DNA of 64,000 nt from Odontesthes bonariensis (Eukaryota; Chordata; Actinopteri; Atheriniformes; Atherinopsidae). Below the pieces are notes generated by a model. The model worked only from the letters and a program-made list of their open reading frames with translations, was not told the DNA's origin and ran no database searches. The stretch lies in assembly GCF_027942865.1 (NCBI RefSeq), contig NC_134517.1, positions 11,386,275 through 11,450,274 on the forward strand. The letters run 5' to 3'. The stretch's first letter is position 1. Each line of letters begins with the position of its first letter. Below are positions 22,145-63,372 of the stretch, one piece after another. Both the position numbers and the translations under genes were made by a program.

Positions 22145-22439
22145 ATGAGTGCAAGGTCACTTGAAAATGTAAAGAAAGCAGAAGTTTTTTTTTTTGTGTT
22201 ATGTAAATTCATTATCTTCTCTCAACAATTTTCTGACTGACATTGACAAATTCAAGTGTAAGAGGATTTGAAATCTTTAACCTTCAAGGAATTCCAAATT
22301 TTGGCAGGTAAATATAAGTATAGAACCTATTTCTGTTGTTTGTCAAAGTAGCTTGATTGACTCATATTTTTTGTGAATATCTAAACAGCAAAGTTAGCAA
22401 TAAACAGTAAAACTATTTATGCATTTTTTTTGTATATAA

Positions 22440-22685
22440 TAAATTGGAGGCCTTCATCCTCTTTTCATTATTTTTCCTATGTGCAGCCTCATGTTTGGCT
22501 CTTGGCACATGAACACATCTCTTTGCAGGGTTTCCTTTGAATCAGTGACATCTTTTGTGCAAAATGGAATCAGAATAGATGCACAACATAAGTTCTCCAA
22601 AAATCATGGTAAGCATCCTCAATAACATACAAAATATTTTTGTTTTTCCTTCACAAGGGACATTATCTAAAGTTCCCAATTCCAT
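22440..22685 (-). pseudogene. relic of small conserved frame downstream of OR (unit 1)
   Basis: This matches the 89-codon frame at 38335-38604 (start MELGTLDNVP) but one extra base near 22560 shifts the frame after about 45 codons. Because the frame fails here, the open frames in the other units may be chance rather than a gene. Confidence 0.3.
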
Positions 22686-22918
22686 TTTCCCTCAGCCTAA
22701 ATGAATTCATGCTTCGTCGCATTTATTAAGTTGATTTAGAACTCAAGTGTTTTTGTTCCAGAATAATCCAAGAAAGCCTTCTTTAAGTTTCCATCCTCTT
22801 TAATGACACATGTAATAACAGATTCAGATCATAATCAAATCAGAACAAAAATAAATGAACAATGATGTTGAAAATACTTTGTCTCTATCTGATCACTTAC
22901 TCTCAGAAAAAGCTCATG

Positions 22919-23905
22919 TTACTTATTATATACTTTTTTCTGAGGCGTTTTTGCCTTTTTTCTTTGCTTAGGGTTTGAACACAACAACATTCTCAGTATA
23001 GGTTTTCTAATTTCTGGTAACTTTAAGCCATACACAAGAGGGTTCAGAATAGGAGGAATAACAACAAACTCAAGTGACAGAATGACTGCAACAAATGGAT
23101 TCAGCTCCTCCAGGTTAATTCTACTCAGGGCAATGTCACAAAACCCAGCAATAGAATAGTTGACAAAAGTAACAATGTGTGGCAAGCAGCTTTGCATGAC
23201 TTTTCTCTTGAACTCTGAGGAGTGTTTCCTACAAACCAGTAAAATTCTTACATATGTATACAGGACAAAAGCCAGGGACAGAAAGACTGAGCTTATGCTG
23301 AGAAACATGCCAACTAAGTTATTGAGCACAGTAGGGACACATGACAATTTTACAACAGGCCAGTTGGCACAGAATACCTTTGGTATCTTGTTGCCACACA
23401 GTGGAAGTCTGGAGGCCAGATAAACACAGGTTAAAACAGGAAAAGCTGGATAGATCCACGCTAAGGCAAGCAATTGAGTGACCATCCTGGAGCTCATTTT
23501 GTTGTGATAATGTAAAGGTTGGCACACGGCAACATACCGATCATATGCCATTATGCTCAAAATGGTGAGCTCATTTGATGCATAGCTATAGATTACATAA
23601 ATCTGAGTGAAACATGCTGGTCGTGATATTAAATGAGTATCAGATAGAAGGTCTCTTAGAAATCTAAGAAAAAATCCAGCAGAGCCATACAGAGAGTTAA
23701 GCGAGAGACACATGATGAAAATATACATGGGCTCATGTAGACCTTTCTCTCGTGATATTACAACTATGATGACAAGATTGGCAGAGATAATGAAAGCAAA
23801 CACCAAGAAACACACAACAAAGGTTGGGTAACAGTAATTGCCTATGTTCACAAACATTGTGAGGTTAAAATAAGAGGTATTAGAAATGTTTTTCATTGAC
23901 GCCAT
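22919..23905 (-). CDS. olfactory receptor, array copy 1
   Basis: An intact, single coding-exon odorant receptor of 328 residues. Seen: N-glycosylation sites at N6, N9 and N14; TM1 about 27-50; GLHEPMYIFI at 55-64; Cys98; MAYDRYVAVCQPLHYH at 119-134; loop-2 Cys170, Cys179 and Cys189; TM5 about 196-222; KRKVMQSCLPH at 233-243 before TM6; PPILNPLVYGLKL at 284-296; and a Lys-rich tail. The ATG at 23905 (MASMKN) is chosen because it is shared with the other three copies. Diagnostic residues: SYASNEL in TM3, WIYPAFPVL in TM4, LSISSVFLS in TM5, SIAGFCDI in TM6. It shares TM3/TM4 wording with copy 3 and TM5 wording with copy 4. Neighbours are the other array receptors in the same orientation. Fish annotation usually calls such genes 11A1-like; the odorant is unknown. 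Confidence 0.95.
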   Translation of the reverse strand: MASMKNISNTSYFNLTMFVNIGNYCYPTFVVCFLVFAFIISANLVIIVVISREKGLHEPMYIFIMCLSLNSLYGSAGFFLRFLRDLLSDTHLISRPACFTQIYVIYSYASNELTILSIMAYDRYVAVCQPLHYHNKMSSRMVTQLLALAWIYPAFPVLTCVYLASRLPLCGNKIPKVFCANWPVVKLSCVPTVLNNLVGMFLSISSVFLSLAFVLYTYVRILLVCRKHSSEFKRKVMQSCLPHIVTFVNYSIAGFCDIALSRINLEELNPFVAVILSLEFVVIPPILNPLVYGLKLPEIRKPILRMLLCSNPKQRKKAKTPQKKVYNK

Positions 23906-23918
23906 ATACAATGTTAAA

Positions 23919-24264
23919 CTGTCAAATGATTATCCCCAAAACAGTTTTGAAGTAGTTGCAGCTACTAGTTCTTGATTAGTCACTGGTTTGGATGTTAAGT
24001 AAGGCAGTCACAGGTATGTGTGTGTGGAGTCAGACAAGAGAACAGAAAATATTTTCAAAATGATGAATAAAACAAGATGCAAGTAAGAAACCTGTATTGC
24101 AATGAGACCCAAAGACAGCAGAGTTAATTACAGTCTCAGTTGAGTTGAATGTAAAAATTCTGTGGTTGTAAAGTCTCACCGTAGACTCGTGTTGTCTGTG
24201 TGTGGTCGGTGGCACAGAAGGTGACCACTGAGGATACACAGGAGCTGATGAGGGTGTATTTAAC
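23919..24264 (-). promoter_or_regulatory. OR copy 1 promoter, 5' noncoding exon and candidate 261-bp intron
   Basis: On the minus strand GTTAAATACACCCTC (24264-24250) is a TATA-like site. A donor CTACG/GTGAGAC sits at 24180/24179 and an acceptor ATTTGACAG ends at 23919, fourteen bases before the ATG, with TGACTAATC upstream as a possible branch point. Vertebrate OR genes commonly have a noncoding 5' exon. The same spacing is kept in all four units. Splicing is inferred, not shown. Confidence 0.45.
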
Positions 24265-24430
24265 TTGTCGAACTATGTGACGTAACCATAGTTATTGCTC
24301 CTCTGTGGCTCTAAAATTGTGTTTCCCATTATCCATACCAACATCATTCTGATATTTTCTTTACCAAAACCTGAACATGGGTTTATATGGCAAAGCAAAT
24401 CTGATTATGAAATTCCTGCTTACATTAGAT

Positions 24431-24490
24431 GACTAGATTAGATTCAACTTTATTGTCATTGCACAGAGTACAAGTACTGAGACAATGAAA
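24431..24490 (-). repeat. LINE/SINE 3' tail shared by all array units
   Basis: Read on the minus strand, TTTCATTGTCTCAGTACTTG runs into TGCAATGACAATAAAGTTGAA and ends in TCTAATCTAGTC repeats, a familiar fish retroposon end. Matching copies lie at about 40357-40416, 49432-49491 and 62348-62402, so it was part of the ancestral unit. The rest of the element may extend to about 24700. Confidence 0.5.
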
Positions 24491-26668
24491 CGCAGTTAAG
24501 CAGAAGTACAAAGAAGCAGAAAGTGTTTATTATGTGCATGTGCAGGAAGAGCAGCATACATATATAAAGAAAAAGTTTCAGAATGAATGCAGAAAAGTTG
24601 TCGAATGAGAATGAATTACATGTGTTGGCAAGAACAACATGTTTGTACCAGAAGCCATCTCATTTCAGTTTGGTGGCGTACAGGTGAACAGCCCATGTGA
24701 AGATCCAAAGAGGCAGAGTATATAAGTTAAAAATAGAGTTGTAAAACTTCTTTATCTGCATTGGAAAGAGACTATGGAACAGAACAGAAAGTCTCGGCTC
24801 GGGTATCCGATGGTTAAAACATAAAGTAAAAAATATCCCCCTGACATATCATCAAATGATAGCCAGTGGGTTCCCAGTTTGTCCTCTTTGTAAATTTTGG
24901 CATGTTTCCTCAATTCCTTCATGTTTGTTTTTCATTTTATTGATCCATGCATTTATCTGTGCAAGGGCGAAACCATAGTGTAGATATTGGGGGGGTCCAA
25001 ATTAGAACTGCAGACCATATTCCAGCGGAGGGTCTGGGGGTCCTCCCCCAGAAGATTTTTAATTTCTTAGATGCCATTTCCTGCATTCTAGTGCATTTTA
25101 GGGTGACCTGTACAAATCCTAAACCCATGAAATATATACTGTATAGAACAGTAGATTTCAGCCCTTGGTCCAAATGTGAGCCCTTCTGAAAATATTTATA
25201 TTGAAAATGTTGTACAATTTTCATATAGGTGTATTGATAAAGATGTGCTTGTATAGAATATAGTTTTTAAGAAATGCAGTATATGACCAATTAACAAGTT
25301 ACAATTCAAAGCTCGTTTGCACAATATCACATGCTCTTCCAGGATCTGACGATACACCACAGACCACACAATTCCCAATTTGTGTTTTAAGCTGTAGCTT
25401 ACTGTCTCTTCCACAGAAATACATGTAAATAAGAAAAAAAACCTTGTTATTGTTGTTGTTATTCGTAGTAGTAGTATTAGTCGTAGCAGCAGTATTTTAA
25501 TTCATTATCTGTTTTGTTTGGTCCTCAAAACTGTGGTGCTTGGAGTGACAACCGTTCAAACGAATCCGCAACTTGACATTCTGGGCTAAACCAAGTTCAC
25601 AACGGGGGAAGGGGCTCGCAATGTTTTTTCCCTTGATTGTTTGGTTGATTCGTTCTCGTTTCCCACATTGAAAGTAAATGTGGAACAGCAAGGGACTGAT
25701 CTAGGAAAGAAGGAGGACTTTTATATGTCACATACTAGACAAAATATTGGAGGGGGGGGGGGTTCTGTGGCGTACAGCAGACGCCCCATGTACAGAGGCT
25801 ATAGTCCTCGCTGCAGCTGGCCCCGGTTCGAATCCTGCATCGGACGGCCCTTTGCTGCGTGTTATTCCCCCTCTCTCTCTGCCCCCTGCTTCCTGTCTCT
25901 CTTCACTGTCCTATACAATAAAGCAGGGGTATTCAACTAAAATTTAAAGAGGTCCAGTTGGACAATTTCTTGAAGCAAAGGTCCGGAAGATCATAATGTC
26001 TAACCATTTAGTGTGATATATATTTAAGTTTAGTGTGACATATATTTAAGTAGCCAAGTAGTTGTAGCAACATCTGCATGTAATCAAAACCTGACGGTTA
26101 AATCAAATGAATTCAGTACAATTCAAAAACTTTTTGACAATAATTATTGTCACGTAACATAGAACTGAACATGTATGTATGACTGCAGATAAGTATAATG
26201 TTCTCGATCATAGCAGGGGCTCCATCTGTGGTTATTGAAACCACTTTTTTTGGCTCTATTCCTCTCTTTGTTAACATTTCCTTTATGGCCAGGTAGATGT
26301 CTTCTCCTCTTGTACTGGTCTGAAGGGGAGTGACACCTAACAGGTCTTCACAGAACGCTTTCTGGACTGGTCATATTGGGCTCTGAGACCACTTATTTTC
26401 TGTGATCTCACTTCAGATTTGAGTGGGTATGTTTGTTCAAAACCTTTATGTTTTGTCTCATAATGGTGTTTCACATTGGCACTTATAAAAAGTGCCACTC
26501 TCTGAACATATGAGACACAAAGTTTTAATGCTCCCAGTGGGAAGTATGAACAGAAATGAGTCTGTCCATTCCGGATTAAATGCTCTATTTTCGCTGTCCA
26601 CTTTTCTTTTTTTGGAGAGCACCATTTGTTACTTAATTTTCTCTACCTTTCTCCGGCTCCGTCGTTCG

Positions 26669-26790
26669 TTTCTCTCCCTTTCTCCGTCTCACTCCTGTTT
26701 CTCTCCCTTTGTCCGTCTCACTCCTGTTTCTCTCCCTTTGTCCGTTTCACTCCTGTTTCTCTCCCTTTCTCCGTCTCATTCCTGTTTCTC
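26669..26790. repeat. 29-bp minisatellite, four copies
   Basis: The unit TTTCTCTCCCTTTSTCCGTC plus TCACTCCTG is repeated four times with a few substitutions. It is pyrimidine-rich and lies within the Charlie-like element. Confidence 0.8.
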
Positions 26791-26986
26791 AACTTTCTTC
26801 AAGTCAGTCGTCTGTATATCTCCCTTTGTTTTCTCTAACTGTATGCTATCTATCGTCTTTTCATGTGTAACTTCACTCAATCTCCTTTCTGTCTGCACTG
26901 TAGGTTCGCAATGTTTACCGCCTGTAATGCACAGACTTGATTGGCTGAGTAGTATCACGTGGGATTGGTCTGTGCGTTTCCACACC

Positions 26987-27212
26987 AGCTAAACTGCTAC
27001 CGTAAAGACTGCAAAAGCTGCGCCGGTTAAAATGGAAGCGCGCCGTCAGGTTTTATCACAGCAGCTAAACTGCTACCGTAAAGACTGCAAAAGCTGCGCC
27101 GGTTAAAATGGAAGCGCGCAGTCAGGTTTTATCACAGCAGCTAAACTGCTACCGTAAAGACTGCAAAAGCTGCGCCAGTTAAAATGAAAGCACGCCGTCA
27201 GGTTTTATCATA
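26987..27212. repeat. 76-bp tandem repeat, three copies
   Basis: Copies start at 26987, 27063 and 27139 with AGCTAAACTGCTACCGTAAA and end TCAGGTTTTATCACAGC. Divergence between copies is only a few bases. It forms the subterminal region of the Charlie-like element and could hold transposase-binding sites. Confidence 0.85.
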
Positions 27213-27457
27213 ACCTTCTGTTTTTGGCCGGTTAGGTCCGGGTCCGTATGGGACGGCTTTGCGGTCCGGACCCGGACCGCGGTCCGCCAGTTGGTGACCT
27301 CTGAAATAAAGGCATAAAAAGCCCAAAAAATATTTAAAAAAAAAAAAAAAAAAAAAAATATTGGGGGGGACAGATTGGTACTTTCCCAACATTGGGGGGG
27401 GACCTGTCCCCCTCAATGTCTATGGTGGTTACGCCCCTGTATCTGTGCATCCACTCC

Positions 27458-27914
27458 TGTCACAGCCACAGCTGCTACTCCAGTGCCTGCTTAATGTTTC
27501 TTTTCTTTTCCTAGTTTTCCTTCTACCACCAGGAGGAGGGGATGTCATTCTGCCCTGACACCAGTTTTCTATTGTTTCTTAATTATGTTCCATGTATAAA
27601 TACTTGGTTAGCTTCCCAATTCTTTGCCAGATAGTTAGCATTATCAGTGTTATTCTGGTAGTCATGGTTAAAACCTTTGTCTTTTATTTTTTTGGATTTA
27701 CGTCTTGGATTACGCTTTACATTTTGAATATATACTTACTTATTTGTTTGTATTACCTGTGCCTGAGCTCACCTGTGAGTTTTGTTGGTTACCTGCTTCA
27801 GTCAACTCCACAGGTGTTCTGAGTGCAAGTTCGCAATAAAGATAATCTTTGGAATCTACTTCACCCGTTTCTGTGTCTCCGCTCCGGGGTCCACGCTTTC
27901 ATCAAAATGTGACA
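27458..27914 (+). repeat. 5' LTR of Ty3 copy A
   Basis: Begins TGTCACAGCCACAGC and ends AAATGTGACA. It has TATAAATACTTGG near 27597 as a TATA-like site and GCAATAAAGATAATC near 27833 as a polyadenylation-like signal. By eye it differs from the 5' LTR of copy B at about seven positions but from its own 3' LTR at about two dozen plus small indels. Confidence 0.85.
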
Positions 27915-27987
27915 GAACTATCTGAAAAAATGGATTCCGCAGATCCAAAGTGTTGTGGACGAGGCATTGGCATCGGCTCAGGGCGCC

Positions 27988-29367
27988 TTATCGGGACAGC
28001 ATGCTCAAGACCTCAGGGGCATAATGGGTATTAGAACTTTGAAGGTAGGTCAGTTTTTTGTGGTCGGTCCAAACTATAAAAGGGGTCTCAGATCCCTCCA
28101 GCCAGTGCCTCCACTCTTCCAAAGCAAGGACGACCGCCAACAGCTCACGATTACCCACATCATAAGTACGCTCTGCTGGGGAAAGACGACGTAAAAAGTA
28201 GGCACAGGGACGTAATCTCTGGTTTGAGTACTGAGAGAGCACCGCTCCCACACCATTGTCTGAGGCATCCACCTCCACAACGAACTGTTTTGTGGTGTCA
28301 GGGTGAATGAGGACAAGTGCAGATGTAAACAGTGTCTTGAGTCTTTGGAAAGCCCGTGCTGCCTCTGTAGACCAAGCTAATGGGAGAGAAGTGGAGGCGA
28401 GTTGGGTGAGAGGTGCGGCCACTTTACTAAAATCTCTAATAAAGCGCCGGTAGAAATGAGCAAACCCAAGAAAACGTTGGAGCTGTTTGCGGTTCTCCGG
28501 CACCGGCCATTCAACTACTGCCTGGACCTTGACTGGGTCAGAGCGAATCTGTATCTTCTCAATGATGAAGCCTAAAAATGAATTAGACTGAACATGAAAC
28601 TGACATTTTTCGGCTTTGACAAAGAGTCTGTTCTCCAGCAGTCTTTGGAGGACTAACCTGACATGCCTGTAGTGCTCCTCTTGATTGCGAGAAAAAAAAT
28701 AACTAATTTCATCCAAATAAACGAAAACAAAACGGTTAAGCAAATCACGGTGCACATCTTTATCCAAAGATTGGAAAATGGCAGGGGTGTTACTCAAACC
28801 AAAAGGCATAACCAAGTATTCAAAATGGCCAAGAGGAGTATTGAATGGCGTCTTCCACTCATCCCCCTCCCGAATGCGAACAAGATGATAAGCATTACGT
28901 AGGTCTAGTTTAGTGAAAACTGTGGACTGGTGAAGGGAGTGGAAAGCAGAATCCAGTAGTGGTAAAGGATACTTATTCTTGACTGTTGTAGCGTTGAGGC
29001 CACGATAATCAATACATGGGCATAAGGTCTTGCCCTTTTTGGACACAAAGAAAAAACCAGCACCCACAGGGGAGGAAGAGGGGTGAATCACAACAGCTGC
29101 CAAAGACTCCTGAATGTACCTCTCCATTGTTTCTCTCTCAGGACGAAACAGATCATACAAATGGCGAGAGGGAAAAGGAGACCCAGGCAGAAGGTCAATA
29201 CCACAGTCATAGGGACGGTGTGGGTGGGGGGGGAGCTGTTTGCTAAATACCTCAGCCAGGTCATGATAGCATTTAGGGACCCCAGAAAGATCACGTGAGT
29301 CAGGAGGACCTACAGAAGACGACAAAAGAGGAACTGCTGACTTTAGACAGTTGCTGTGGCATGCCAC
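27988..29367 (-). pseudogene. RT-RNase H block of Ty3 copy A
   Basis: Reverse transcriptase fingers and palm ([20 protein letters not shown], then [20 protein letters not shown] and [13 protein letters not shown]) are followed by the RNase H region ([20 protein letters not shown], then [20 protein letters not shown]). Order and spacing are typical of fish Ty3 Pol. This is a fossil fragment, not a host gene. Confidence 0.85.
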
Positions 29368-29423
29368 ACTCCAACTAATTATGGTGCTTTGTGCCTAATC
29401 AATGTGTGGATTATGGAGTCTAA

Positions 29424-30784
29424 TGCCCCTTTTCCACCGAACAGTTTTGTACCAACACAGCTCTACACGGTCCCACTCTACCCTGGTTGGGAGCTTTTCC
29501 ACCGCGGGTTGAAGGTTGGACCCGTTACAATTTTGAGCCCCGGCAAGTACCTGCTTCAGAGGTGGGTCTAGTAGGTACTTGTCGGTGCTAAAACGTCACA
29601 TGATCAGTGCTGTCCACTGATTGGTCAGGTGAAATTACGTCATACGTACGTCACCGAAGCTCGGGGAGCTTTATGTATGAAACACCCGCCATGTATGAAA
29701 ACACAACTGCGAGAGAACCAGAGAATAAACAGAATTATGAAGATGGAAGACCAGAGAAAGAAAGCCAACCCATGGACAGTGAGCGAGGTGCAGACCTTTC
29801 TGTGTGTGGTGGCTGAGGACCGCGTGCAGAAGGAACTGGACGGAGCGACATGAAATGAGAAGGTGTTCCAGGATATAACCAAGCTGATGGCTAGCCATGC
29901 TATCACCGGAATTCTCAGCAGTGCCGAGACAAGCTGAAGAGCTATTACCGGCAGGTAAAGGACCACAACAGCCGGAGTGGGTCAAACCGAAAGACATGGA
30001 AGTGGTTCGACCAAATGGACGGCATTTACGGTCACAGCCCGGCGAACGGCATGGATACGGCGACGTCTTTGTTGGAGGCAATGAAAAATGGTAAGTTGTT
30101 CTTATCCCATTCGTGCAACTTATATGTCTTAACAAATGCATGTTTTATATCGTAACAAATACATGTTCAGTCTTTAACTTGTGTAAAAAGTTACACAGAC
30201 GTCTCATAAGTTGTTCTGAGTGAGCTAGCAAACAACGCTGTTTTGGAAGGCTAGCACAGTGTCTCACCTATGCGGTTACGTGTATGCGTTTCGTATGTTC
30301 ACACTTTTTATTTTTTTTCACTCAAGACTCGGTTTGTGCAACCGATGAGTGTTCGGTTGCTGAGGTCAGCCAAGATCCTCCAATCCTGCAGGCTTCAGAA
30401 CCGACACTGGCATCGCAATCTGCAGCTGAGGCAACAGCTGCTGTCTGCATTCCACCGGCACCAACACTGGCGTTGCCTGTATCTGAGAGAACTCCTGCTG
30501 TTTACTTTTGTGCTGTCTTTTTTAATAAAGAGCTTGGTTTAACTAAACAATATGGATTGTCAACTGCATTACACATTACACTCGATCTTGTGTTTACTTT
30601 CGACTAACACTTTGTAGTCACCTGAAACCGACGTCACGTTAGTGGTGAACGGGCCGACTCCGCCCACTTCCAGGCCACAGTTTGGGTGGAAAAGAAAATG
30701 TTACTGGTGCCGTGTCGTGTAGTGTAGTGTTGGGCTATATCGAACCGAGTAGAGTAGGGCTAGCTTGGCGGTGGAAAAGGGGCA
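29424..30784 (+). mobile_element. PIF/Harbinger DNA transposon inserted in Ty3 copy A
   Basis: Terminal inverted repeats TGCCCCTTTTCCACC (29424) and GGTGGAAAAGGGGCA (to 30784) are exact over 15 bases. The target TAA is duplicated (29421-29423, 30785-30787). Copy B at 42930-42945 shows the empty site GTCTAAGCC, so both ends are certain. TAA duplication and the encoded Myb/SANT-like protein place it in PIF/Harbinger. At 1361 bp it lacks a transposase gene and would depend on one elsewhere. Confidence 0.9.
29737..30530 (+). pseudogene. Harbinger Myb/SANT-like DNA-binding protein gene, decayed
   Basis: In Harbinger transposons this accessory protein binds the transposon ends and helps the transposase. 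Seen: a SANT-like domain, ANPWTVSEVQTFLCVVAEDR at about 29764-29823, NEKVFQDITKLMAS, then in another frame NSQQCRDKLKSYYRQVKDHN and TWKWFDQMDGIYGHSP near 29910-30030. An exon ends at ATGAAAAATG/GTAAGT (30090/30091); a T-rich acceptor ending CTCAAG at 30326 begins a second exon rich in Ala, Thr and Pro, followed by TTTAATAAAG near 30520. A stop replaces an expected residue near 29851 (TGA) and a frameshift lies near 29890-29900, so this copy is dead. Introns are inferred from splice signals. Confidence 0.65.
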
Positions 30785-30799
30785 TAAGCCAGGGGAGAC

Positions 30800-34002: not shown

Positions 34003-34284
34003 GCATTAGGCCTAATTGTTTGTTGTTTCGTTTGCCTACGTTTGATTAAGCCCACAGTTATTACAATTAGACATGCAAGCTGCCGACGTTTTAGTTTCTC
34101 GTTTTTCTTATTTATATTCAAACAAGGTCTGCTGCTATATTGAGTTTAACAGTTGCACGTAGGCTCAAGGTAGGGTAATTATTATTTACAAACAAGGTCT
34201 GCTGCTATTGAGTTTAACAGTTGCACGGAGGCTCAAGCCTAAATAGTTTAGAAATGTGCAGCCATGTACAGTAGCTATCCTGTC

Positions 34285-34507: not shown

Positions 34508-34538
<31 letters not shown>

Positions 34539-48906: not shown

Positions 48907-48919
48907 ATACAGTGTTAAA

Positions 48920-51886: not shown

Positions 51887-51891
51887 AACAA

Positions 51892-54800
51892 TTCAAATTC
51901 AATTCAATTCAAATATACTTTATTTATCCCAGAGGGAAATTAAATGTTGATGTAGCTCAATTAAATCAAAGAGTTATTATAGATGCTGATGGCTGTGGGC
52001 AGGAAAGATTTCCTGTAGCGGTCCGTTTTGCATCCAAACTGAAGAAGCCTTTGACTGAAGAGACTCTGTTTTCTGATAACAGTCTCATGGAGAGGATGTT
52101 CAGGGTTGTCCATAATTCTCTTGATTTTATGCAAAATCCTTCTTTGCATTATTGTCTCCAGAGGTTCCACAGTCGTCCCCAGAACAGAACCAGCCTTCTT
52201 TATCAGGTTGTTGAGTCTTTTTAGGTCCCTGGTTCTGATGCTGCTGCCCCAACAGATGACGCAAGAGGAAATGACGCTCTCAACTACAGACTTGTAGAAG
52301 ATCTGCAACATCTTGTTGCAAACCTTGAAGGATCTTAGCTTCCTCAAGAAGTACAGTCTGCTCTGTCCTTTCTTGTAGATTGCTTCACTGTTGTGTCTCC
52401 AGTCCAGTCTGTTGTCCACATGAACACCAAGGTATTTATATTCCTCAACCACCTCCACTTCTTCTCCCATGATGGAAACAGGGTTTGATCTGACCCTGTT
52501 TCTCCTGAAATCTACAATCATCTCCTTTGTTTTGTTAACATTCAAGATGAGATGATTGTTCCCACACCATGCCACAAAGCAGTCCACCAGCTCTCTGTAC
52601 TCAGCTTCTTGTCCATCTCTGATACACCCGACAACGGCAGAGTCATCTGAATATTTCTGTAGATGACAGGAGTCTGACTTGTACTGGAAGTCTGAAGTGT
52701 ACATAGTGAAAAGGAATGGTGAGAGTACAGTCCCCTGTGGTGCTCCTGTGCTGCTGATCACCTGGTTAGACACACAATTCTTCAGTCTGACAAACTGTGG
52801 TCTGTTTGTCAGGTAGTCATTAATCCAGGTGATTGTTGAGGCCTCCACCTGAGTCTTCTGGAGTTTCAGACGAAGCAGATCAGGCTGGATTGTGTTAAAT
52901 GCACTGGAGAAATCAAAGAACATGATCCTCACAGTGCTGCCTGCTTTGTCCAGATGACAGTGGGTTTGTTGAAGCAGGTGTATGATAGCGTCTTCAACTC
53001 CAACTCCATGGCGATAAGCAAACTGCAGGGGGTCCTGATATGTGCTGGTTTGCTTACACAGGTGGGTCAACAGGAGTCTCTCCAGGACCTTCATGATGTG
53101 GGATGTCAGTGCAACAGGTCTGTAGTCATTGATATCTGAAGGGTGAGTTTTCTTTGGTACCGGAACCAGACAGGATGTCTTCCACAACAGTGGTACCCTC
53201 TCTTGGGTCAAGCTAAGGTTGAAAAGGTGTTGCAGAATCCCACAGAGCTGCTCTGCACAGGCCTTCAGGACTCGGGGGCTGACACCATCTGGACCTGCAG
53301 CCTTGTTCCGGTTCAGTCTCTCCAACTGCCTCTTCACCTGACTTCTAGAAACAGAAAAGTGGGAGGGGGAGGCAAAGGGGACAGCAGCATCTCCTGATTG
53401 GGTTGATGACAAACTAGTGGAAGCAGAATAATCCATGACTGAGGTGGAGGTGGAGATGTTACAGGAAAGCAGTGAGTCAGAGGAGGGTGGGATGTCTCTT
53501 TGGCTGGGAACAGGAGGGGAGGATGGTGAGCTTGTTCCTGAACTGAACCTGTTGAAGAATGTGTTCAGCTCATTTGCTCTGTCCAGACTTCCATCCATCC
53601 GATCCTCCCTCTGCTTGAGGCCTGTGATCTTCTTCATTCCTGACCACACATCTCTGATATTGTTCCTCTGCAGTTTACTCTCAAGCTTCTTTCTATACAC
53701 CTCCTTGCTCTCTCTGATCTTGACTTTGAGCTGCTTCTGTATACTCCTCAGTAACTCCCTGTCTCGCTCCCTAAAGGCTCTTTTTTTCCTGTTCAATAGT
53801 TCTTTTAGCTCACTGGTGATCCAGGGTTTGTTATTAGGGAAGCATCTCACTGTTCTGGTGGGGATGGTGTTGTCCACACAGAAGTTTATATAGTCAGTCA
53901 CACACTCAGTCATGGCATTAATGTCCTCTCCATGTGGCTTACAAAGAGAAATCCAATCGGTTGCATCAAAACAACCCTGTAAGGCTTCTTCAGCTTCCTC
54001 TGACCACTTTCTAACAGTCCTTTTTGTGACAGGTAGTCTCTGGACAAGGGGTTTATATGCTGAACAGAGAAAAACAAGGTTGTGATCTGATTTTCCCAGG
54101 GGAGGTCTTGATTTGGAAATGTGTGAATCCTTGACATTTGTGTAAAACAAATCCAATGTCTTGTTTTCTCTGGTAGAGCAGCTGACAAACTGTTGAAAAG
54201 TTGGCAGTGTAGCAGAGAGTGAGGCATGATTAAAATCACCAGATATTGCCACAAAAGAATTGGGGTGTTGAGTCTGTATCTTAGCAACAACGGAACTGAT
54301 GACATCACATGCAGTGTCGGCAACAGCTGAGGGTGGAATGTAAACAGCCACCAAAACAACACTGGTGAACTCTCTTGGCAAATAATATGGACGAAAACTT
54401 ACTGCCAATAGTTCAATGTCAGGACTGCAGATACGACTCTTCACAGTAACATGTCCTGGGTGACACCATCTGTTGTTGACAAGCACTGCCAATCCACCCC
54501 CTTTCCTTTTCCTGCAACTCTTTATATCTCGATCTGCTCGTACAGTCAGGAAGCCCGGCAGAGAGACGCTGGAGTCGGGTATATGATCCTGTAGCCATGT
54601 CTCAGTAAAACACATAATGCTACATTCCCGATATTCTTGCTGAGTCCTTATCAAGGCTAAAAGTTCATCCAACTTGTTAGCTAACGATCTTACATTTCCC
54701 ATGATGCAGGATGGCATAGATGGTTTGAACTTCTTCTTTCTTTCTCTCCTCTTTGCTCCTGCTCTGCATCCACGACGCCTCCTTTTCAATTCCAGTGGGA

Positions 54801-55095
54801 TTTCTGGCTTCAGTTGTCGAATTATTTCTGCTTTTCCAATGTTATTCAGCTGCTCCCTGTTGTAAACCACCTTGTTGCTATGGTGATGCATCATGACAAA
54901 AGAGTAAAATATACAAAAGTATTGGGAAAAATTAATCCAGCTGCACAGCATCCAAGGGAGGAAGGAACAGTTGTCCAAAAAAATGCAATTTCTTCCAAGA
55001 AATAACAGGAATGAAATTTAGAAAAAAAAAGAAAAATCTCAATGTGAGGTACAGAGCTACTCCAACATGCTGCTACCCTCAGCAGCGCATTCTAG
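51892..55095 (-). mobile_element. near-complete L2/Rex1-type LINE inserted in Ty3 copy C
   Basis: The 3' end on the minus strand is AATTTCCCTCTGGGATAAAT, then AAAGTATATTTGAATTGAATT repeats; the 5' end is at about 55095. AACAA is repeated at both edges (51887-51891, 55096-55100), and copy B at 42126 shows the undisturbed CTTTAACAAAGAGCC. One long ORF fills most of the 3.2 kb. The absence of internal stops and the short, clean tail point to a recent insertion. It is confined to unit 3. Confidence 0.85.
51961..54951 (-). CDS. LINE ORF2: AP endonuclease and reverse transcriptase
   Basis: An uninterrupted frame of about 996 codons from the ATG at 54951 (the frame is open a little farther, without ATG). 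It would nick DNA and copy the LINE RNA at the cut. Seen in order: a basic linker RRRRGCRAGAKRRERKKK; AP endonuclease motifs FTETWL, VYIPPSA, AISGDFNH and GKSDHNL over about residues 95-310; a Lys/Arg-rich middle with ITSELKELLNRKKR; reverse transcriptase motifs NKAAGPDGVSPRVLK, NDYRPVALTS, FFDFSSAFNTI, GAPQGTVLSPFLF and YSDDSAVVG; then EEYKYLGVHVD and a C-terminal LFSQRLLQFGCKTDRYRKSF region. The catalytic loop is YSDD rather than the usual YADD/FADD, a tolerated variant. Whether an ORF1 is normally present is unclear; none fits in the 140 bp upstream. Confidence 0.88.
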   Translation of the reverse strand: MLCSWINFSQYFCIFYSFVMMHHHSNKVVYNREQLNNIGKAEIIRQLKPEIPLELKRRRRGCRAGAKRRERKKKFKPSMPSCIMGNVRSLANKLDELLALIRTQQEYRECSIMCFTETWLQDHIPDSSVSLPGFLTVRADRDIKSCRKRKGGGLAVLVNNRWCHPGHVTVKSRICSPDIELLAVSFRPYYLPREFTSVVLVAVYIPPSAVADTACDVISSVVAKIQTQHPNSFVAISGDFNHASLSATLPTFQQFVSCSTRENKTLDLFYTNVKDSHISKSRPPLGKSDHNLVFLCSAYKPLVQRLPVTKRTVRKWSEEAEEALQGCFDATDWISLCKPHGEDINAMTECVTDYINFCVDNTIPTRTVRCFPNNKPWITSELKELLNRKKRAFRERDRELLRSIQKQLKVKIRESKEVYRKKLESKLQRNNIRDVWSGMKKITGLKQREDRMDGSLDRANELNTFFNRFSSGTSSPSSPPVPSQRDIPPSSDSLLSCNISTSTSVMDYSASTSLSSTQSGDAAVPFASPSHFSVSRSQVKRQLERLNRNKAAGPDGVSPRVLKACAEQLCGILQHLFNLSLTQERVPLLWKTSCLVPVPKKTHPSDINDYRPVALTSHIMKVLERLLLTHLCKQTSTYQDPLQFAYRHGVGVEDAIIHLLQQTHCHLDKAGSTVRIMFFDFSSAFNTIQPDLLRLKLQKTQVEASTITWINDYLTNRPQFVRLKNCVSNQVISSTGAPQGTVLSPFLFTMYTSDFQYKSDSCHLQKYSDDSAVVGCIRDGQEAEYRELVDCFVAWCGNNHLILNVNKTKEMIVDFRRNRVRSNPVSIMGEEVEVVEEYKYLGVHVDNRLDWRHNSEAIYKKGQSRLYFLRKLRSFKVCNKMLQIFYKSVVESVISSCVICWGSSIRTRDLKRLNNLIKKAGSVLGTTVEPLETIMQRRILHKIKRIMDNPEHPLHETVIRKQSLFSQRLLQFGCKTDRYRKSFLPTAISIYNNSLI

Positions 55096-55100
55096 AACAA

Positions 55101-57214
55101 AGAGCCTATTCTCCAGCAGTCTTTGGAGGACTAACCTGACATGCCTGTAGTGCTCCTCTTGATTGCGAGAAAAAAAATAATAATTTCATCCAAATAAACG
55201 AAAACAAAACAGGTAAGCAAATCACGGAGCAGATCTTTATCCAAAGATTGGAAAATCGCAGGGGTGTTAGTCAAACCAAAAGGCACAACCAAGTATTCAA
55301 AATGGCCAAGAGGAGTATTTAATGGCGTCTTCCACTCATCCCCCTCCCGAATGCGAACAAGATGATAAGCATTACGTAGGTCTAGTTTAGTGAAAACTGT
55401 GGACTGGTGAAGGGAGTGGAAAGCAGAATCCAGTAGTGGTAAAGGATACTTATTCTTGACTGTTGTAGCGTTGAGGCCACGATAATCAATACATGGGCAT
55501 AAGGTCTTGCCCTTTTTGGACACAAAGAAAAAACCAGCACCCACAGGGGAGGAAGAGGGGTGAATCACAACAGCTGCCAAAGACTCCTGAATGTACCTCT
55601 CCATTGTTTCTCTCTCAGGACGAAACAGATCGTACAAATGGCTAGAGGGAAAAGGAGACCCAGGCAGAAGGTCAATACCACAGTCATAGGGACGGTGTGG
55701 GGGGGGGGGGGAGAGAAAGCTGTTTACTAAATATCTCAGCTAGGTCATGATAGCATGTGGGGACCCCAGAAAGATCACGTGAGTCAGGAGGAGCTACAGA
55801 AGACGACAAAAGAGGAACTGCTGACTTTAGACAGTTGCTGTGGCATGCCACACTCCAACTAATTATGGTGCTTTGTGCCTAATCAATGTGTGGATTATGC
55901 AGTCTAAGCCAGGGGAGACCTAAAGCAACAGGAGTATGAGGAGGTGGAATGATGACAAAAAAAACTGATAAACTCATGGTGGTTAGCAGAAATAAGTAGA
56001 CATAAAGGAACAGTCTGATGAATAATTACAGACAGTAATCTACCATCCAAAGCATTTACATTGCGAGGTATAGTAAGGGAAAACACAGGAATATTATGTT
56101 GTTTTACACAATCTGCAGCCATGAAGTTCTCATCAGCCCCAGAGTCAACAAATGGTTTTATTTGCACCTCCATATGGTTACAAAGGAACACTGCAGATAA
56201 TTGAGTTCGAGGGGGAGAGGAAACATTACAGACTTAGCTTCGGCCCACCTGGGTATCCCCTTTCTCAGGTGAGCCTAGACTTCTGTGAGACTCGGGCAGT
56301 TGTTACGCATGTGCCCTGGTTGGCCACAATAAAAACACAGTCTCCCCTAAAACCTGCGTTGGCGCTCAGCAGGAGTCAATCTGGCCCCTCCCAGCTGCAT
56401 AGGCTCAGGAGTGGCCTGGACCACAGGAGCATGGACCTCCTCTGGAGACGGGATGGCCACCTTTTGACTGGAGACTGCAGCAGAAAACAGGACAAAGGAG
56501 GAAGTGGCTGCGGTCACGTTCTCGGCGTCTCTCCTGCATGCGGTTATCTAACCGTTGTGCAAGGACTATTAATTTGGCAAGGGAACTTAAATTCATCCCG
56601 AGGCGCCAGTTCATCCTTTAGGCTCTCATTCAGAGAGCGGAGAAAAGTTCCCATAAGGGCCGGTTCATCCCAGCCACTCTCCGTTGCGAGGGTGGAGAAT
56701 TCAATTGAGTGTTCGGCAACTGACCTGGAGCCTTGGTGCAGTGAGATTAGTCAGTTGCCAGCCTCCTTTCCCCGAACGGGATGATCGAAAACTCCTTACA
56801 AAACAATTGTAGGAAGTGCAGAGCCGGGAGTTGCCATCCCACGTTGCCAACGCCCACTGCGCAGCCCGTCCGACTGAGGAGACTGGTGATGTATGCCACC
56901 TTGGCGCTGTCGGCCTGGTACATCAGATGTTGCAGTTCAAAAACCAGAGTGCACTGGAGGAGAAAACGTCCACAGGCTCCAACATCCCCGGCCTAGCGTT
57001 CTGGTCTCGGGAGATGGGGCTCACTGATAGGAGGTGAAGGCGCCGGTGGATCAGCTACTGGAAGTGGAGGAGGTTGAGGAGGGAGCCCTTGTTCCAGCCT
57101 CAGAGAGAGAACAGCGACGTTGGAGACTCTGAGTTCCGCCAAACAGAGAGCCAGCCATCCAATGATCCATCTGAGCCTGTTCTTCCTGCTAGCTGCTTTG
57201 TGGGAGCAGCCCAT
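55101..57214 (-). pseudogene. gag-protease-RT block of Ty3 copy C, right of the LINE
   Basis: RT motifs ([20 protein letters not shown] near 55430-55500), protease (FVDSGADENFMAADC near 56130) and gag ([18 protein letters not shown] near 56530, EPHLPRPER near 57000) occur in the same order as in copy B. Fossil pieces. Confidence 0.82.
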
Positions 57215-57264
57215 TGGGAGGTTGTGCGGCAGGTTAAGGAGGCCCTCTCCTGTAATCCTGGCCC

Positions 57265-58598
57265 AGGTAATGAGCTACCTAATTGTTTGTTTGTTCCCGA
57301 AGGTCTCAGGTGTTGCAGTGGGGGCATTCCTCCAACTTGGCCTGCCATCCTGGAGCTGCACGTACGTTTGGGCTCATACGCCAGCGGTTCTAGTGGCCCA
57401 AGCTGGGCCGTGACACCAAAGAGTTTGTGGCAGCCTGTTCCATCTGTGCCCGAGGTAAAGCCTCTCACCAACGACCCGCTGGTTTACTAAATCCTCTTCC
57501 TATCCCCACTAGACCATGGTCCCACATCACACTAGATTTTGTCACCGGGTTACCTTTTTCAGCAGGCAATACCACCATCCTGACAATTATTGACCGTTTT
57601 TCTAAGGCTGTGCACTTTGTGCCTTTAACCAAGCTCCCTTCTGCTTTTAAAACTGCTGAGTTACTGGTTAAACATGTGTTCCGTCTCCACGGCATTCCCG
57701 TGGAGATGGTATCAGATCGGGGGCCTCAGTTCTCTTCCCAGGTCTGGCGAGCCTTTTGTGGTGCATTGGGGGCGAGGGTCAGTCTATCATCCGGGTACCA
57801 TCCTCGGACCAATGGCCAGATAGAGCGAGCCAACCAGGACCTGGAGGCTGCACTGAGATGTGTTTGTGCTCATAACCCATCCTCCTGGAGTACTCAGTTA
57901 CCATGGGTGGAATACGGCCAAAATTTACTCTCCACTTCTGCCACTGGTATGTCACCTTTCATGGTTATGTATGATTTTCAACCCCCATTATTCCCTTCCC
58001 AGGAGGATGAGGTCTCCGTACCTTCTGTTCAGGAACATTTCCGACGGGCTGGCAGAGTGTGGCTCGAGGCTCGGGCCGCTTTAATTAGGTCCGCTGCCAG
58101 GAACCGCTGCCTGGCTGACCGCCGGCGTTCTCCTGCACCCATTATCAGCCTGGGCAGATGGTATGGTTATCCAAGGATCTGCCTCTGCAGGTAGACTCTC
58201 GTAAGGTGGCCCCCCGTTACATTGGACCTTTTCAGGTGGTCAAGGTCATTTATCCCTCTGCTGTACGCCTTAAACTCCCCAACTCCTTGAATGTTCATGG
58301 TACTTTTCATGTCTCGTTGTTAAAGCCAGTTTCCTCCTGTCCACTTTTCATCGGTCCTCCTGCCGAGCCCCCCAGTCGTGGATGGCCATCCTGCATTCTC
58401 TGTCAATCACATTTTCGATGTGCGTGGACGTGGCAGAGGTTTTCGGTTTCTGGTGGACTGGGAGGGTTACGGGCCGGAAGAACGCTCTTGGGTTCCCCGC
58501 CGGTTCATTCTTGACCCGTCCCTTATTTCTGATTTCTACAAGGCCCACCCTAACAAACCCGGACGACCGCCAGGAGGCAGTTGTTGGAGGAGGGGTAC
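57265..58598 (+). pseudogene. integrase and chromodomain block of Ty3 copy C
   Basis: [62 protein letters not shown] and then [20 protein letters not shown]. Fossil, plus strand, ending at the 3' LTR. Confidence 0.83.
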
Positions 58599-59367
58599 TA
58601 TCACAGCCACAGCTGCTACTCCAGTGCCTGCTTAATGTTTCTTTTCTTTTCTTGGTTTTCCTTCTACCAGCAGGAGGAGGGGATGTCATGCTGCCCTGAC
58701 ACCAGTTTTCTATTGTTTCTTAATTATGTTCCATGTATAAATACTTGGTTTGCTCCCCCATTTCTTTGCCAGATAGTTAGCATTATCAGTGTTATTCTGG
58801 TTTTCATGGTGAAACCTTTGTCTTTTTTGGATTTACGACTTGGATTACGCTTTACATTTTAAATATATACTTACATATTTCTTTGGATTACCTGTGCCTG
58901 AGCTCACCTGTGAGTTTTGTTGGCGACCTCCCAGCCAGCATGTCCATGTGGGGCCCATAAGGTTTAAATTTGGGCTGCAGATAAGGGTCCCAAGTGGGTT
59001 TGTCTGCAGTTTCCACGGTGGCCTCACCTGTGTTTGCCCATATGGTTTTCAAAGTGCAACTTGAAGGGTTAGGGGTTAGGGTTACCCTAAGCCTTAAATC
59101 ATTCCAAAGGCAATACAGATAAACACATCACACAAAGTAAAAGAATGTTCACATTCATATTGGCTAAATGCAAAGTCCAACCAAAGCCACACAGAGACTT
59201 GAAACCTTATGGGCCCCACATGGACATGCTGTCTGGGCTGCTTCAGTCCACTCCACAGATGATGTTGTGAGTGCAAGTTCGCAATAAAGATAATCATCGG
59301 AATACTATCTACTTCCCCCATTTGTGTGCCTCCGCTCTGGGGTCCACGCTTTCATCAAAACGTGACA
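58599..59367 (+). repeat. 3' LTR of Ty3 copy C, enlarged by a MITE
   Basis: 769 bp, beginning TATCACAGCC as in copy B. It contains the 308-bp MITE at the same position as copy B. Confidence 0.85.
58930..59237. mobile_element. 308-bp MITE in the 3' LTR of copy C
   Basis: Same length, ends, CT flanks and telomere-like GGGTTAGGGGTTAGGGTTA as the copy at 45963-46270. Both descend from one insertion. Confidence 0.75.
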
Positions 59368-60299
59368 ACTCCAAACACTTCATTTTATTGATCCATGCAT
59401 TTATTTGTGCATCCACTCCAAACACTTGAAGAAAAAAATGTGAGTTTTCTGCTTTTCTGAAAAAGCAGCTATAGCATCATAAGCATTTCCTGAATTGATT
59501 TAGTCTGATTTAATGGAAACTGAAGACCCAAAACAAAAGAACAATATACAGCAGTTACATTTTTCTTTATTAATCACACATGTATTTATGATTCTATTTT
59601 TAAATAAATATCCTTATTTCTTAATGTAAATAACTTCTTATTTAGTCTAAAACTTTTATTCTGAGAAGGTCAAGTTTGAGAAATGGTCAGCCTCCCCAGT
59701 CCTGTATGTATTGTGTCAGGAAATAAACTATAGTAACTGACTAGTCAAAGTTCACTGCGCCCTGTGTGAGATGTGCTCTAACTGTACTTTGATGTACAAT
59801 CAAATTCTGTGACCCAAACAGGAATCTCAATTGTTGAGACTTAAAAAAAAAAAATGAGAATAAGTTTTGATGAAGACCTTGCAGATGTGATATCAGTAAA
59901 TACTACATTTTCAGGACCTAAATTCTGTGACCCATCAGATTCTGTGATGCGTACAAGGTCACATGAAAAGGTAATGAAAGCAGAAGTTTTGTGTGTTATG
60001 TAAATTCATTATCTTCTCTCAACAATTGACATTGACAAATTCAAGTGTAAGAGGATTTTAATTCCTTAGCCTTCAAGGATGTCCACATTCAACAGGTAAA
60101 TCAGAATCAGAATTATTTTATTAACCCTTGCAGGAAATTCCTTTTCTGCAGTGCCCTCGTTTACAGAAAAAAAACAATATATATATATATATATATAATG
60201 TAATATAAGTATAGAACCTATTTCTGTTGTTTGTCAAAGTAGCTTGACTCGTATTTTTTGTGAATATATAAACAGCAAAGTTAGGAATAAACAGTAAAA

Positions 60300-60569
60300 C
60301 TATTTATGCATTTTTTGTATATCAAAAATTGGAGGCCTACGTCCTCTTTTCATTATTTTTCCTATGTGCAGCCTCATGTTTGGCTCTTGGCACATGAACG
60401 CATCTCTTTGCAGGGTTTCCTTTGAATCAGTGACATCTTTGAGCAAAATGGAATCAGAATAAATGCAAAACATAAGTTCTCCAAAAATCATGGTAAGCAT
60501 CCTCAATAACATACAACATATTTTTGTTTTTCCTTCATAAGGGACATTATCTAAAGTTCCCAATTCCAT
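60300..60569 (-). CDS. small open frame downstream of OR copy 4, unknown
   Basis: An 89-codon counterpart of 38335-38604. Its middle reads LLRMLTMIFGELMFC, which matches unit 1 more than units 2 and 3. No family recognised. Confidence 0.2.
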   Translation of the reverse strand: MELGTLDNVPYEGKTKICCMLLRMLTMIFGELMFCIYSDSILLKDVTDSKETLQRDAFMCQEPNMRLHIGKIMKRGRRPPIFDIQKMHK

Positions 60570-60835
60570 TTTCCCTCAGCCTAAATGAATTCATGTTTTG
60601 TCGCATTTATTAAGTTGATGAAAAGAAAGAAATAATATATTATTACATATTATATAATATATATTTATAAATATTTTTGTTCCAGAATAATCAAAGTAAA
60701 CATTCTTTTAAGTTTTCATCCTTTTTAATGACACATGTAATAGCAGATTGATAATCGAATCAGAAAAAAATAAATGAACAATGATGTTGAAAAGACTTTG
60801 TCTATCTGACCACTTACTCTCAGAAAAAACTCATT

Positions 60836-61822
60836 TTACTTATTATATGCTTTTTTCTGAGGCGTTTTTGCCTTTTTTCTTTGCTTAGGGTTTGAACACA
60901 ACAACATTCTCAGTATAGGTTTTCTAATTTCTGGTAACTTTAAACCATACACAAGAGGGTTCAGAATGGGAGGAATAACAACAAACTCAAGTGACAGAAT
61001 GACTGCTACAAATGGATTCAGCTCCTCCAGATTAATTCTGCTCAGGGCAACGTCACAAAACAAAGTAATAGAATAGTTGACAAAAGTAACAATGTGTGGC
61101 AAGCAGCTTTGCATGACTTTTCTCTTGAACTCTGAGGAGTGTTTCCTACAAACCAGTAAAATTCTTACATATGTATACAGGACAAAAGCCAGGGACAGAA
61201 AGACTGAGCTTATGCTGAGAAACATGCCAACTAAGTTATTGAGCACAGTAGGGACACATGACAATTTTATAACAGGCCAGTTGGCACAGAATACCTTTGG
61301 TATCTTGTTGCCACACAGTGGAAGTCTGGAGGCCAGATAAACACAGGTTGAAACAGAAAAAGCTGGAAAGATCCACGCTAAGGCAAGCAATTGAGTGACC
61401 ATCCTGGAGCTCATTTTGTTGTGATAATGTAAAGGTTGGCACACGGCAACATACCGATCATATGCCATTATGCTCAAAATGGTGAGCTCAGATGATGCAT
61501 AGGTATAGATTACATAAATCTGAGTGAAACATGCTGGTCGTGATATTAAATGAGTATCAGATAGAAGGTCTCTTAGAAATCTAAGAAAAAATCCAGCAGA
61601 GCCATACAGAGAGTTAAGCGAGAGACACATGATGAAAATATACATGGGCTCATGTAGACCTTTCTCTTGTGATATTACAACTATGATGACAAGATTGGCA
61701 GAGATAATAAAAGCAAACACCAAGAAACACACAACAAAGGTTGGGTAACAGTAATTGCCTATGTTCACAAACATTGTGAGGTTAAAATAAGAGGTATTAG
61801 AAATGTTTTTCATTGACGCCAT
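60836..61822 (-). CDS. olfactory receptor, array copy 4
   Basis: An intact 328-residue odorant receptor, ATG at 61822 (MASMKN). Landmarks are as in the sister genes: GLHEPMYIFI, MAYDRYVAVCQPLHYH, KRKVMQSCLPH and PPILNPLVYGLKL. TM3 reads TYASSEL and TM4 WIFPAFSVS (close to copy 2), TM5 reads LSISSVFLS (identical to copy 1), and TM6 begins SITLFCDV (private). Q52 replaces R52 in the first intracellular loop and I185 replaces V185. Its mixed affinities suggest sequence exchange between units. It is the last complete gene of the array in this window, and the spacer beyond it carries no Ty3 element. Confidence 0.95.
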   Translation of the reverse strand: MASMKNISNTSYFNLTMFVNIGNYCYPTFVVCFLVFAFIISANLVIIVVISQEKGLHEPMYIFIMCLSLNSLYGSAGFFLRFLRDLLSDTHLISRPACFTQIYVIYTYASSELTILSIMAYDRYVAVCQPLHYHNKMSSRMVTQLLALAWIFPAFSVSTCVYLASRLPLCGNKIPKVFCANWPVIKLSCVPTVLNNLVGMFLSISSVFLSLAFVLYTYVRILLVCRKHSSEFKRKVMQSCLPHIVTFVNYSITLFCDVALSRINLEELNPFVAVILSLEFVVIPPILNPLVYGLKLPEIRKPILRMLLCSNPKQRKKAKTPQKKAYNK

Positions 61823-61835
61823 ATACAGTGTTAAA

Positions 61836-62181
61836 CTGTCAAATGATTATCCCCAAAACAGTTATGAAGTAGTTGCAGCTACTAGTTCTTGATTAGTCAC
61901 TGGTTTGGATGTTAAGTAAGGCAGTCACAGGTATGTGTGTGTGGAGTCAGACAAGAGAACAGAAAAGATTTTCAAAATGATGAATAAAACAAGATGCAAG
62001 TAAGAAACCTGTATTGCAATGAGACCCAAAGACAGCAGAGTTAATTACAGTCTCAGTTGAGTTGAATGTAAAAATTCTGTGGTTGTAAAGTCTCACCGTA
62101 GACTCGTGTTGTCTGTGTGTGGTCGGTGGCACAGAAGGTGACCACTGAGGATTCACAGGAGCTGCTGAAGGTGTATTTAAC
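61836..62181 (-). promoter_or_regulatory. OR copy 4 promoter, 5' exon and candidate 261-bp intron
   Basis: Donor at 62096 and acceptor at 61836 are conserved. The TATA-like site at 62181-62167 reads GTTAAATACACCTTC, one base different from the other three copies but outside the TTAAATA core. Splicing is inferred. Confidence 0.45.
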
Positions 62182-62400
62182 TTGTCAAACTACGTGACGT
62201 AACCATAGTTATTGCTCCTCTGTGGCTCTAAAATTGTGTTTCCCATTATACATACCAACATAATTCTGATATTTGCTTTACCAAAACCTGAACATGGGTT
62301 TATATGGCAAAGCAAATCTGATTATGAAATTACTGCTTACATTAGATGACTAGATTAGATTCAACTTTATTGTCATTGCACATAGTACAAGTACTGAGAC

Positions 62401-63372
62401 AATAACCGCATTCGTACGGAGATGTTCTAAGCTAGCTACCAACCACCAAACACCTACGGCATATAAGTTCCTGTAAATGTTGGCTTGTTTCCTCAATTCC
62501 TTCATGATTGTTTTTCATTTTATTGATCCATGCATTTATTTGTGCATCCACTCCAAACACTTGAAGAAAAAAATGTGAGTTTCTGAAAAAGCAGCTATGG
62601 CATCATATGCATTTCCTGAAGTGTTTTAGTCTGATTTGATGGAAACTGCAGACCCAAAACAAAAGAACAATATGCAGCATTTACATTTTTCTTCATTAAT
62701 TACACATCCATGATTTTGTTTTGAAAAAATTATCCTTATTTCTTCATTATAAAGAACTTTTTTTCTTCTTCAAATATTGTCATTTCTTTATGTTTATCGA
62801 CTTATTTAATCTAATTCTTTTACTCTGAGACGTTCACGTTTGAGAAATGGTCATCCTCGCCGGTCCTTCGAGCCAAAATTTGAGCACGAGTTGTTGGCTT
62901 CCTCTTCATGAACTTTGTTGCCACGACAGGTGTGAATTTGTACATAGTCCGCGCTAGCGATGCCACCTCAGGTGCATGGTATCTTTTACTGTTGCTTGTT
63001 TTTAATTCATTTTAATTCGTTTATTTGTTTCTCTTTAAATTCTTTTATGTATTTTTAATGCTTCTGCCATTCCCCGCTTTAATGCTTTTATTTTATGTAA
63101 CGCACTTTGAATTGTTTTGTGCTATACAAATAAATTTGACTTTGACTTTGTTGTTTTATGATTTGTGTCAGGAGGTAAACTATCGTAACCGACAAGTCAA
63201 AGTTCACTGCGCCCTGTGTGAGGCGTGCTCTAACTGTAAAACTGTAAAACAAATTGAGAAAAAGTTTTGATGAAGACCTTGCAGATGTAATATCAGTAAA
63301 TATTACATTTCAGGACCTAAATTCTGTGACCCATCAGATTCTGTGATCCAAACAGGAAGCTCAGTTGTAAAA
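62401..63372. repeat. diverged array spacer with empty Ty3 site
   Basis: From about 62460 the DNA aligns with the spacer found after each 3' LTR (for example 37415-37970): CATTTTATTGATCCATGCAT, GTGCATCCACTCCAAACACTT, the TTTCTGAAAAAGCAGCTAT stretch, and finally CCTAAATTCTGTGACCCATC near 63315. It is clearly more diverged than the other spacers. The target ACTCC (about 62549-62553) is present once with no LTR. A LINE-tail insertion interrupts it at about 62980-63150. Confidence 0.75.
62980..63150 (+). repeat. LINE 3' tail (L2-like)
   Basis: TGTAACGCACTTTGAATTG and GTGCTATACAAATAAATTTG followed by TTTGAC repeats form a typical fish L2-group 3' end. No coding part is attached. The sister spacers lack it. 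Confidence 0.6.

Follow-up and report, generated by a model that had tools for sequence, protein, structure and literature searches.

The window analysed here, 64,000 nucleotides of Odontesthes bonariensis (NCBI RefSeq assembly GCF_027942865.1, contig NC_134517.1, positions 11,386,275 to 11,450,274 of the forward strand), contains a tandem array of olfactory receptor (OR) genes in which three of the four receptors are accompanied by a Ty3 retroelement bounded by long terminal repeats (LTRs) (Table 1; all positions are those of the window). A first-pass annotation had placed four OR genes at 22919, 38854, 47920 and 60836, and open reading frames (ORFs) were found at these places, all of which match the Pfam profile 7tm_4 Olfactory receptor (4/4; E 8.6e-41 to 3.6e-39); the start-to-start distances given with them (15935, 9066 and 12916) agree with the ORF coordinates. 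Self-alignment of the window confirmed that the array is real, with four complete head-to-tail units whose junctions all fall at one phase, and with long direct repeats between units that are mostly 94-98% identical and form blocks of up to 7.4 kb at 97%. Chance is excluded as their source, since three control windows, made by shuffling in blocks of 2 bases, had longest off-diagonal matches of 21, 28 and 28 bp. Moreover, the junctions (37973/74, 46981/82 and 59948/49) have the same phase as the homology edges at 22145 (left) and 63347 (right), so that the array is closed within the window.

Once private inserts are subtracted, units 1-3 measure 8475, 9008 and 9098 bp and unit 4 measures 3399 bp; when the Ty3 element is also subtracted, the four units come to 3411, 3579, 3667 and 3399 bp, with insert boundaries accurate to about 10 bp. 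Unit 1 is the shorter of the occupied units because it lacks a 308-bp insert common to units 2 and 3, and because of other small deletions. The basic repeat is consequently a receptor unit of 3.4-3.7 kb, and the unit of about 9 kb is derived, being the same unit holding an element. The 9-kb repeat described earlier thus applies to units 2 and 3 and roughly to unit 1 (8.5 kb), but not to unit 4. Homology at 62472-63347 was also considered as a fifth unit at the right edge and was rejected, as it corresponds to the end of unit 4.

Table 1. Coordinates of the receptor array, its retroelements and later inserts.
Feature	Position	Strand	Details
Tandem unit 1	22145..37973		15829 bp; OR, Ty3 and three private transposon insertions
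Tandem unit 2	37974..46981		9008 bp; OR and Ty3
Tandem unit 3	46982..59948		12967 bp; OR, Ty3, palindromic insert and long interspersed nuclear element (LINE)
Tandem unit 4	59949..63347		3399 bp; OR without Ty3; empty site
Olfactory receptor A	22919..23905	-	328 aa intact ORF, Pfam 7tm_4
Olfactory receptor B	38854..39831	-	325 aa intact ORF, Pfam 7tm_4
Olfactory receptor C	47920..48906	-	328 aa intact ORF, Pfam 7tm_4
Olfactory receptor D	60836..61822	-	328 aa intact ORF, Pfam 7tm_4
Ty3 of unit 1	27458..37392	+	Interrupted by two DNA transposons; flanks ACTCC/AGTCC
Ty3 of unit 2	40971..46400	+	Flanks ACTCC/ACTCC; 308-bp insert in right LTR
Ty3 of unit 3	50726..59367	+	Interrupted by LINE; flanks ACTCC/ACTCC; same 308-bp insert in right LTR
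Empty target site, unit 4	62550..62554		ACTCC, no element
Reverse transcriptase/RNase H part, unit-2 element	41505..42823	-	Pfam
Integrase core part, unit-2 element	44427..45224	+	Pfam rve
Chromodomain part, unit-2 element	45357..45665	+	Pfam Chromo
308-bp insert in right LTR	45963..46270 (unit 2), 58930-59237 (unit 3)		39-bp terminal inverted repeats; absent from unit 1
Unit-1 private spacer insert beside Ty3, presumably hAT-like	24962..27439		8-bp target duplication TATCTGTG and termini
Unit-1 private insert inside Ty3, presumably PIF/Harbinger-like	29424..30784		TAA target duplication and inverted termini
Unit-1 private insert inside Ty3, hAT	31768..35265	+	Pfam Hermes-type transposase DNA-binding domain
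Unit-3 private insert at TTAA	49501..50155		655-bp palindrome
Unit-3 private insert inside Ty3, LINE	51891..55095	-	996-aa ORF, Pfam RVT_1

The Ty3 element had been reported at one spacer position after each of the first three receptors, and this can be stated to the base: all three elements sit at the identical spacer base, flanked by a 5-bp target duplication that reads ACTCC except in the right copy of unit 1 (AGTCC), and unit 4 keeps the same flanks without an element, no LTR match being found to the right of the fourth receptor. Each element opens with TGTCAC and closes with GTGACA, and the features of a Ty3 chromodomain element are present, namely TG..CA LTR ends, the 5-bp target duplication, reverse transcriptase (RT), RNase H (RH), integrase (IN) and chromodomain. 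A tblastn comparison assigned the coding pieces of every copy to two strands, with gag, RT and RNase H on the minus and integrase and chromodomain on the plus, and private inserts split some of the pieces. This common strand arrangement indicates one shared internal inversion; an intact order of gag, protease (PR), RT, RH and IN on one strand was seen in none of the three. Furthermore, every element has a purine-rich tract that stops three bases short of the right LTR, as would fit a plus-strand element whose gag-to-RNase H part has been inverted. All three copies look rearranged and dead, given the inversion in all of them, the interruptions in units 1 and 3 and the 308-bp right-LTR insert in units 2 and 3. 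The gag-like and protease-like pieces of the unit-2 element have no Pfam match, and these labels, like that of sushi-like (sushi-ichi), are assumptions based on general features of such elements.

A target duplication of 41 bp was also considered and was rejected, as it resolves into the 5-bp duplication and, apart from it, a 47-bp stretch of the flank duplicated in tandem. An identical 47-bp stretch by the right end of each element (37406-37452, 46414-46460 and 59381-59427) repeats the target region, and it is present twice in units 1-3, where the element lies within the other copy, and once in unit 4 (62516-62562). A 17-base query used to look for a self-primer matched at no more than 12/17 positions, and the repeat search returned a pairing of 14 bases (86% complementary) that links the LTR to the sequence following it. 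A plus-strand ORF of 210 aa inside the inverted part of the elements of units 2 and 3 (43185-43817 and 56152-56784) is probably due to chance.

Within one element the left and right LTRs differ at 32, 29 and 31 of 432 sites (6.7-7.4%), and left-to-right comparisons across different elements fall in the same range (26-34 of 432). Same-side LTRs of different units differ by 1.2-4.9%, with 5, 10 and 5 differences of 432 between left LTRs and 21, 18 and 9 between right ones. Among 49 biallelic gap-free LTR sites, 17 split left from right in all three elements and none groups the two LTRs of one element, and the left/right split obtained a FastTree support of 0.999. The element bodies differ between units at 112/5049, 109/5048 and 71/5105 sites (1.4-2.2%), all below the smallest LTR pair of 29/432 (P 1e-6, 7e-7 and 2e-10); since they differ less than the LTR pairs, the insertion is older than the copying. 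These comparisons strongly support a single Ty3 insertion that was afterwards copied with the receptor. The earlier suggestion that receptor and retroelement were amplified together is thus borne out by the same site, the same target duplication, the same inversion and the grouping of LTRs by side. Alternatively, three Ty3 elements could have separately entered one hotspot in each spacer, and some elements are known to have a target preference, which would favour such a history; however, the exact sharing of base, duplication and inversion, the 0/49 sites grouping an element's own LTRs and the 308-bp insert common to two elements speak against it. We rejected independent insertion as refuted by the LTR pattern, and its probability is negligible.

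The edges of the units carry the evidence on how the array was multiplied. Over the unit start (22145-22300), the divergence of unit 1 from the other three is 8.7-9.3%, and these differ by 0-4.2% among themselves; at the unit end it is unit 4 that differs from the other three (9.3-11.6%, against 0.9-2.1% among these). Sites private to the copy of receptor A number 31/745 in 22145-22918 vs 11/1562 in 22919-24490 (Fisher P 3e-8), and those private to the copy of receptor D number 45/501 at the unit end vs 12/1562 (Fisher P 2e-18); as controls, D-private sites are not enriched at the left end (7/745 vs 12/1562; P 0.63) and A-private sites are not enriched at the right end (4/501 vs 11/1562; P 0.77). 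Units 2 and 3 begin like unit 4 and, from the element to the unit end, resemble unit 1; they are the hybrids that a crossover joining the receptor block of a left unit to that of a right unit would be expected to produce. Diverged outer edges of the end units with homogenised inner parts, the pattern by which unequal crossing-over is recognised, were therefore found in this array. In addition, the 37 sites of 22145-24490 that split 2:2 support all three topologies (15, 13 and 9 sites) in runs. The topology switches 12 times along them, and shuffles average 24.1 switches (1/20000 as low); so few switches denote a mosaic, which indicates exchange or conversion after the duplications. In this context, we consider that the array grew by homologous unequal crossing-over between receptor blocks, with the Ty3 element as a passenger, and we assign this reading a probability of about 0.9.

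The first-pass annotation had proposed that the LTRs may have promoted unequal crossing-over, in which case mispaired LTRs would have driven the multiplication of the receptor. With two copies present, the elements could indeed serve as substrate in a later crossover, those of units 2 and 3 differing at 71/5105 sites. However, every unit junction falls within plain spacer at the same phase, the nearest LTR being about 0.6 kb away, and no duplication junction carries a recombinant LTR, by which LTR-mediated non-allelic homologous recombination (NAHR) would be identified. Where one element exists, moreover, exchange between its left and right LTR would logically end in a solo LTR or in a tandem element, never in a receptor duplication, and neither product was found in the window, where an LTR query matches only both ends of the three elements. 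The inner units, which combine a unit-4-like start with the element and end of unit 1, indicate a crossover located after the unit start and ahead of the element. With the junctions outside the LTRs and neither solo LTR nor tandem element in the window, the proposed role of the LTRs is not upheld, and we regard LTR-driven amplification as very unlikely and reject it for the first expansion; exchange between whole elements may have taken place in a later one.

Unequal crossing-over between receptor blocks would fit into the following history. About 3.5 kb of DNA holding a single OR gene would have been duplicated in tandem, perhaps by end-joining, as the right-edge and left-edge sequences have about 2 bp in common at the original junction, which is one junction. 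The two units would have diverged, and one Ty3 chromodomain element would then have entered the spacer of the left unit with its 5-bp target duplication. The gag-RT-RNase H part would have been inverted ahead of copying, because every copy has the inversion. The OR blocks of the left and right units would next have engaged in unequal crossing-over and so yielded the inner units, each with an element copy, and, with one unit added per event, we infer two events to reach four units. Later exchange or gene conversion among OR blocks may have kept the receptors alike, and private transposons would have entered units 1 and 3. The raw divergences descend from the outer edges of units 1 and 4 (66/643, 10.3%) through the LTR pair (6.7-7.4%) to the element copies (1.4-2.2%), so that three clocks (outer edges, LTR pair and unit to unit) rank in one order, the last step of which is significant. 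Duplication probably preceded insertion, as supported by the empty site of unit 4 and, weakly, by divergence.

Several observations weigh against this history or against parts of it. The order of events is read from divergence and the empty site in one assembly, and comparison of the outer edges (66/643) with the LTR pairs (32, 29 and 31 of 432) gives P 0.13, 0.05 and 0.10; an element that was polymorphic at the first duplication, with one chromosome occupied and the other empty, would also fit the empty site. Between unit 1 and units 2 and 3 the right LTRs differ at 18-21 of 432 sites, above the left-LTR values, an excess that points to an uneven rate or an uneven conversion history, and the 47-bp stretch, doubled in units 1-3 and single in unit 4, requires an additional event. 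In 22311-22918 the gradient is soft, with A differing by 5.5-6.5% from the others and B, C and D by 3.0-4.7% among themselves, and 23906-24490 has no outlier, D included, all pairs differing by 1.5-2.7%. From there to the element, unit 4 can be aligned over a short stretch only, owing to insertions and deletions (indels), and it has further indels between 62410 and 63157. Some units could also be alternative haplotypes set in tandem by the assembly: units 2 and 3 are about 1-3% apart over much of their length, which lies within the range of allelic divergence of some fishes. Seamless in-phase junctions, the divergence of about 10% kept at the outer edges, and the fact that units 1 and 3 have private insertions bordered by target duplications nevertheless make such an artefact highly improbable.

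Tandem gene duplications are known to take transposons along with them, and the description of a retroelement within a receptor array as unusual was therefore overstated, as the Cyp6g1 and Abp loci illustrate. In teleost odorant-receptor clusters, adjoining single-exon OR genes of one subfamily stand in tandem; the present array differs in that its occupied and empty sites allow duplication, insertion and amplification to be placed in order. Among titles and the beginnings of abstracts in the open-access literature, a limited search returned no OR array with a co-amplified LTR element, and the passages covered of the round goby genome paper describe no such array.

For Cyp6g1 of Drosophila melanogaster, the sections of the report drawn on here describe an LTR-element fragment (Accord) upstream of a gene whose copy number varies, and give the order of events as Accord insertion, gene duplication, HMS-Beagle insertion and P insertion (PMC2891717). 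Both loci have an LTR element beside a duplicated gene; in those sections, however, Accord is causally associated with resistance (PMC2891717), whereas the element of our array is read as a passenger, and our array has four units, the first duplication of which probably precedes the element. Similarly, the mouse Abp report, in the sections used, presents tandem growth of a gene family in a region dense in retrotransposons, with NAHR examined by dot plot and breakpoints and retrotransposons treated as crossover substrates (PMC3669608). Growth of a tandem gene family with retrotransposons in the duplicated region is common to both, but our array has no LTR at the unit junctions and the receptor blocks look like the substrate. 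The array is in this sense a clean, time-ordered example of an ordinary process. Its value lies in the order of events, with no new mechanism involved, and as a natural and compact record of receptor-array growth it keeps occupied and empty sites and the original duplication junction.

An LTR lies about 1.1, 1.8 and 3.6 kb upstream of three receptors, and the fourth receptor is without one. Conceivably the LTR alters when or where these three are chosen for expression, and selection favoured copying of the occupied unit, although we see very little chance of this; if the LTR does affect receptor choice, neighbouring units with and without it make the effect testable. The receptor coding regions differ by 1.6-2.8% of nucleotides in every pair, with a synonymous divergence (dS) of 0.019-0.033 over 312 codons, and their likeness is thus not due to purifying selection alone. 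The ratio of nonsynonymous to synonymous divergence (dN/dS) spans 0.34-1.28 and comes from just 15-25 differences per pair, too thin to argue for selection. Relatives of receptor A were also sought in viral contigs, where 8 pattern matches were obtained and none was confirmed.

As regards the later inserts, two of those in unit 1 (24962..27439 and 29424..30784) we take to be hAT-like and PIF/Harbinger-like from their target duplications and termini, and the 85-aa and 92-aa pieces that they respectively contain have no Pfam match. Two minisatellites, with units of 29 bp and 76 bp, lie inside the former, at 26638-26790 and 26981-27210. The palindrome of unit 3 is near-complete, matching its own reverse complement at about 87%. 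Outside the array, a plus-strand ORF of 476 aa at 5377-6807, with no Pfam match at E 0.01, gives the impression of the end of a retroelement protein. A second OR subfamily, with about 40% amino acid identity to the array receptors, is present at 9186-10151 (intact ORF) and 18987-20249; its two copies are 89% identical, and one carries a frameshift near 19362.

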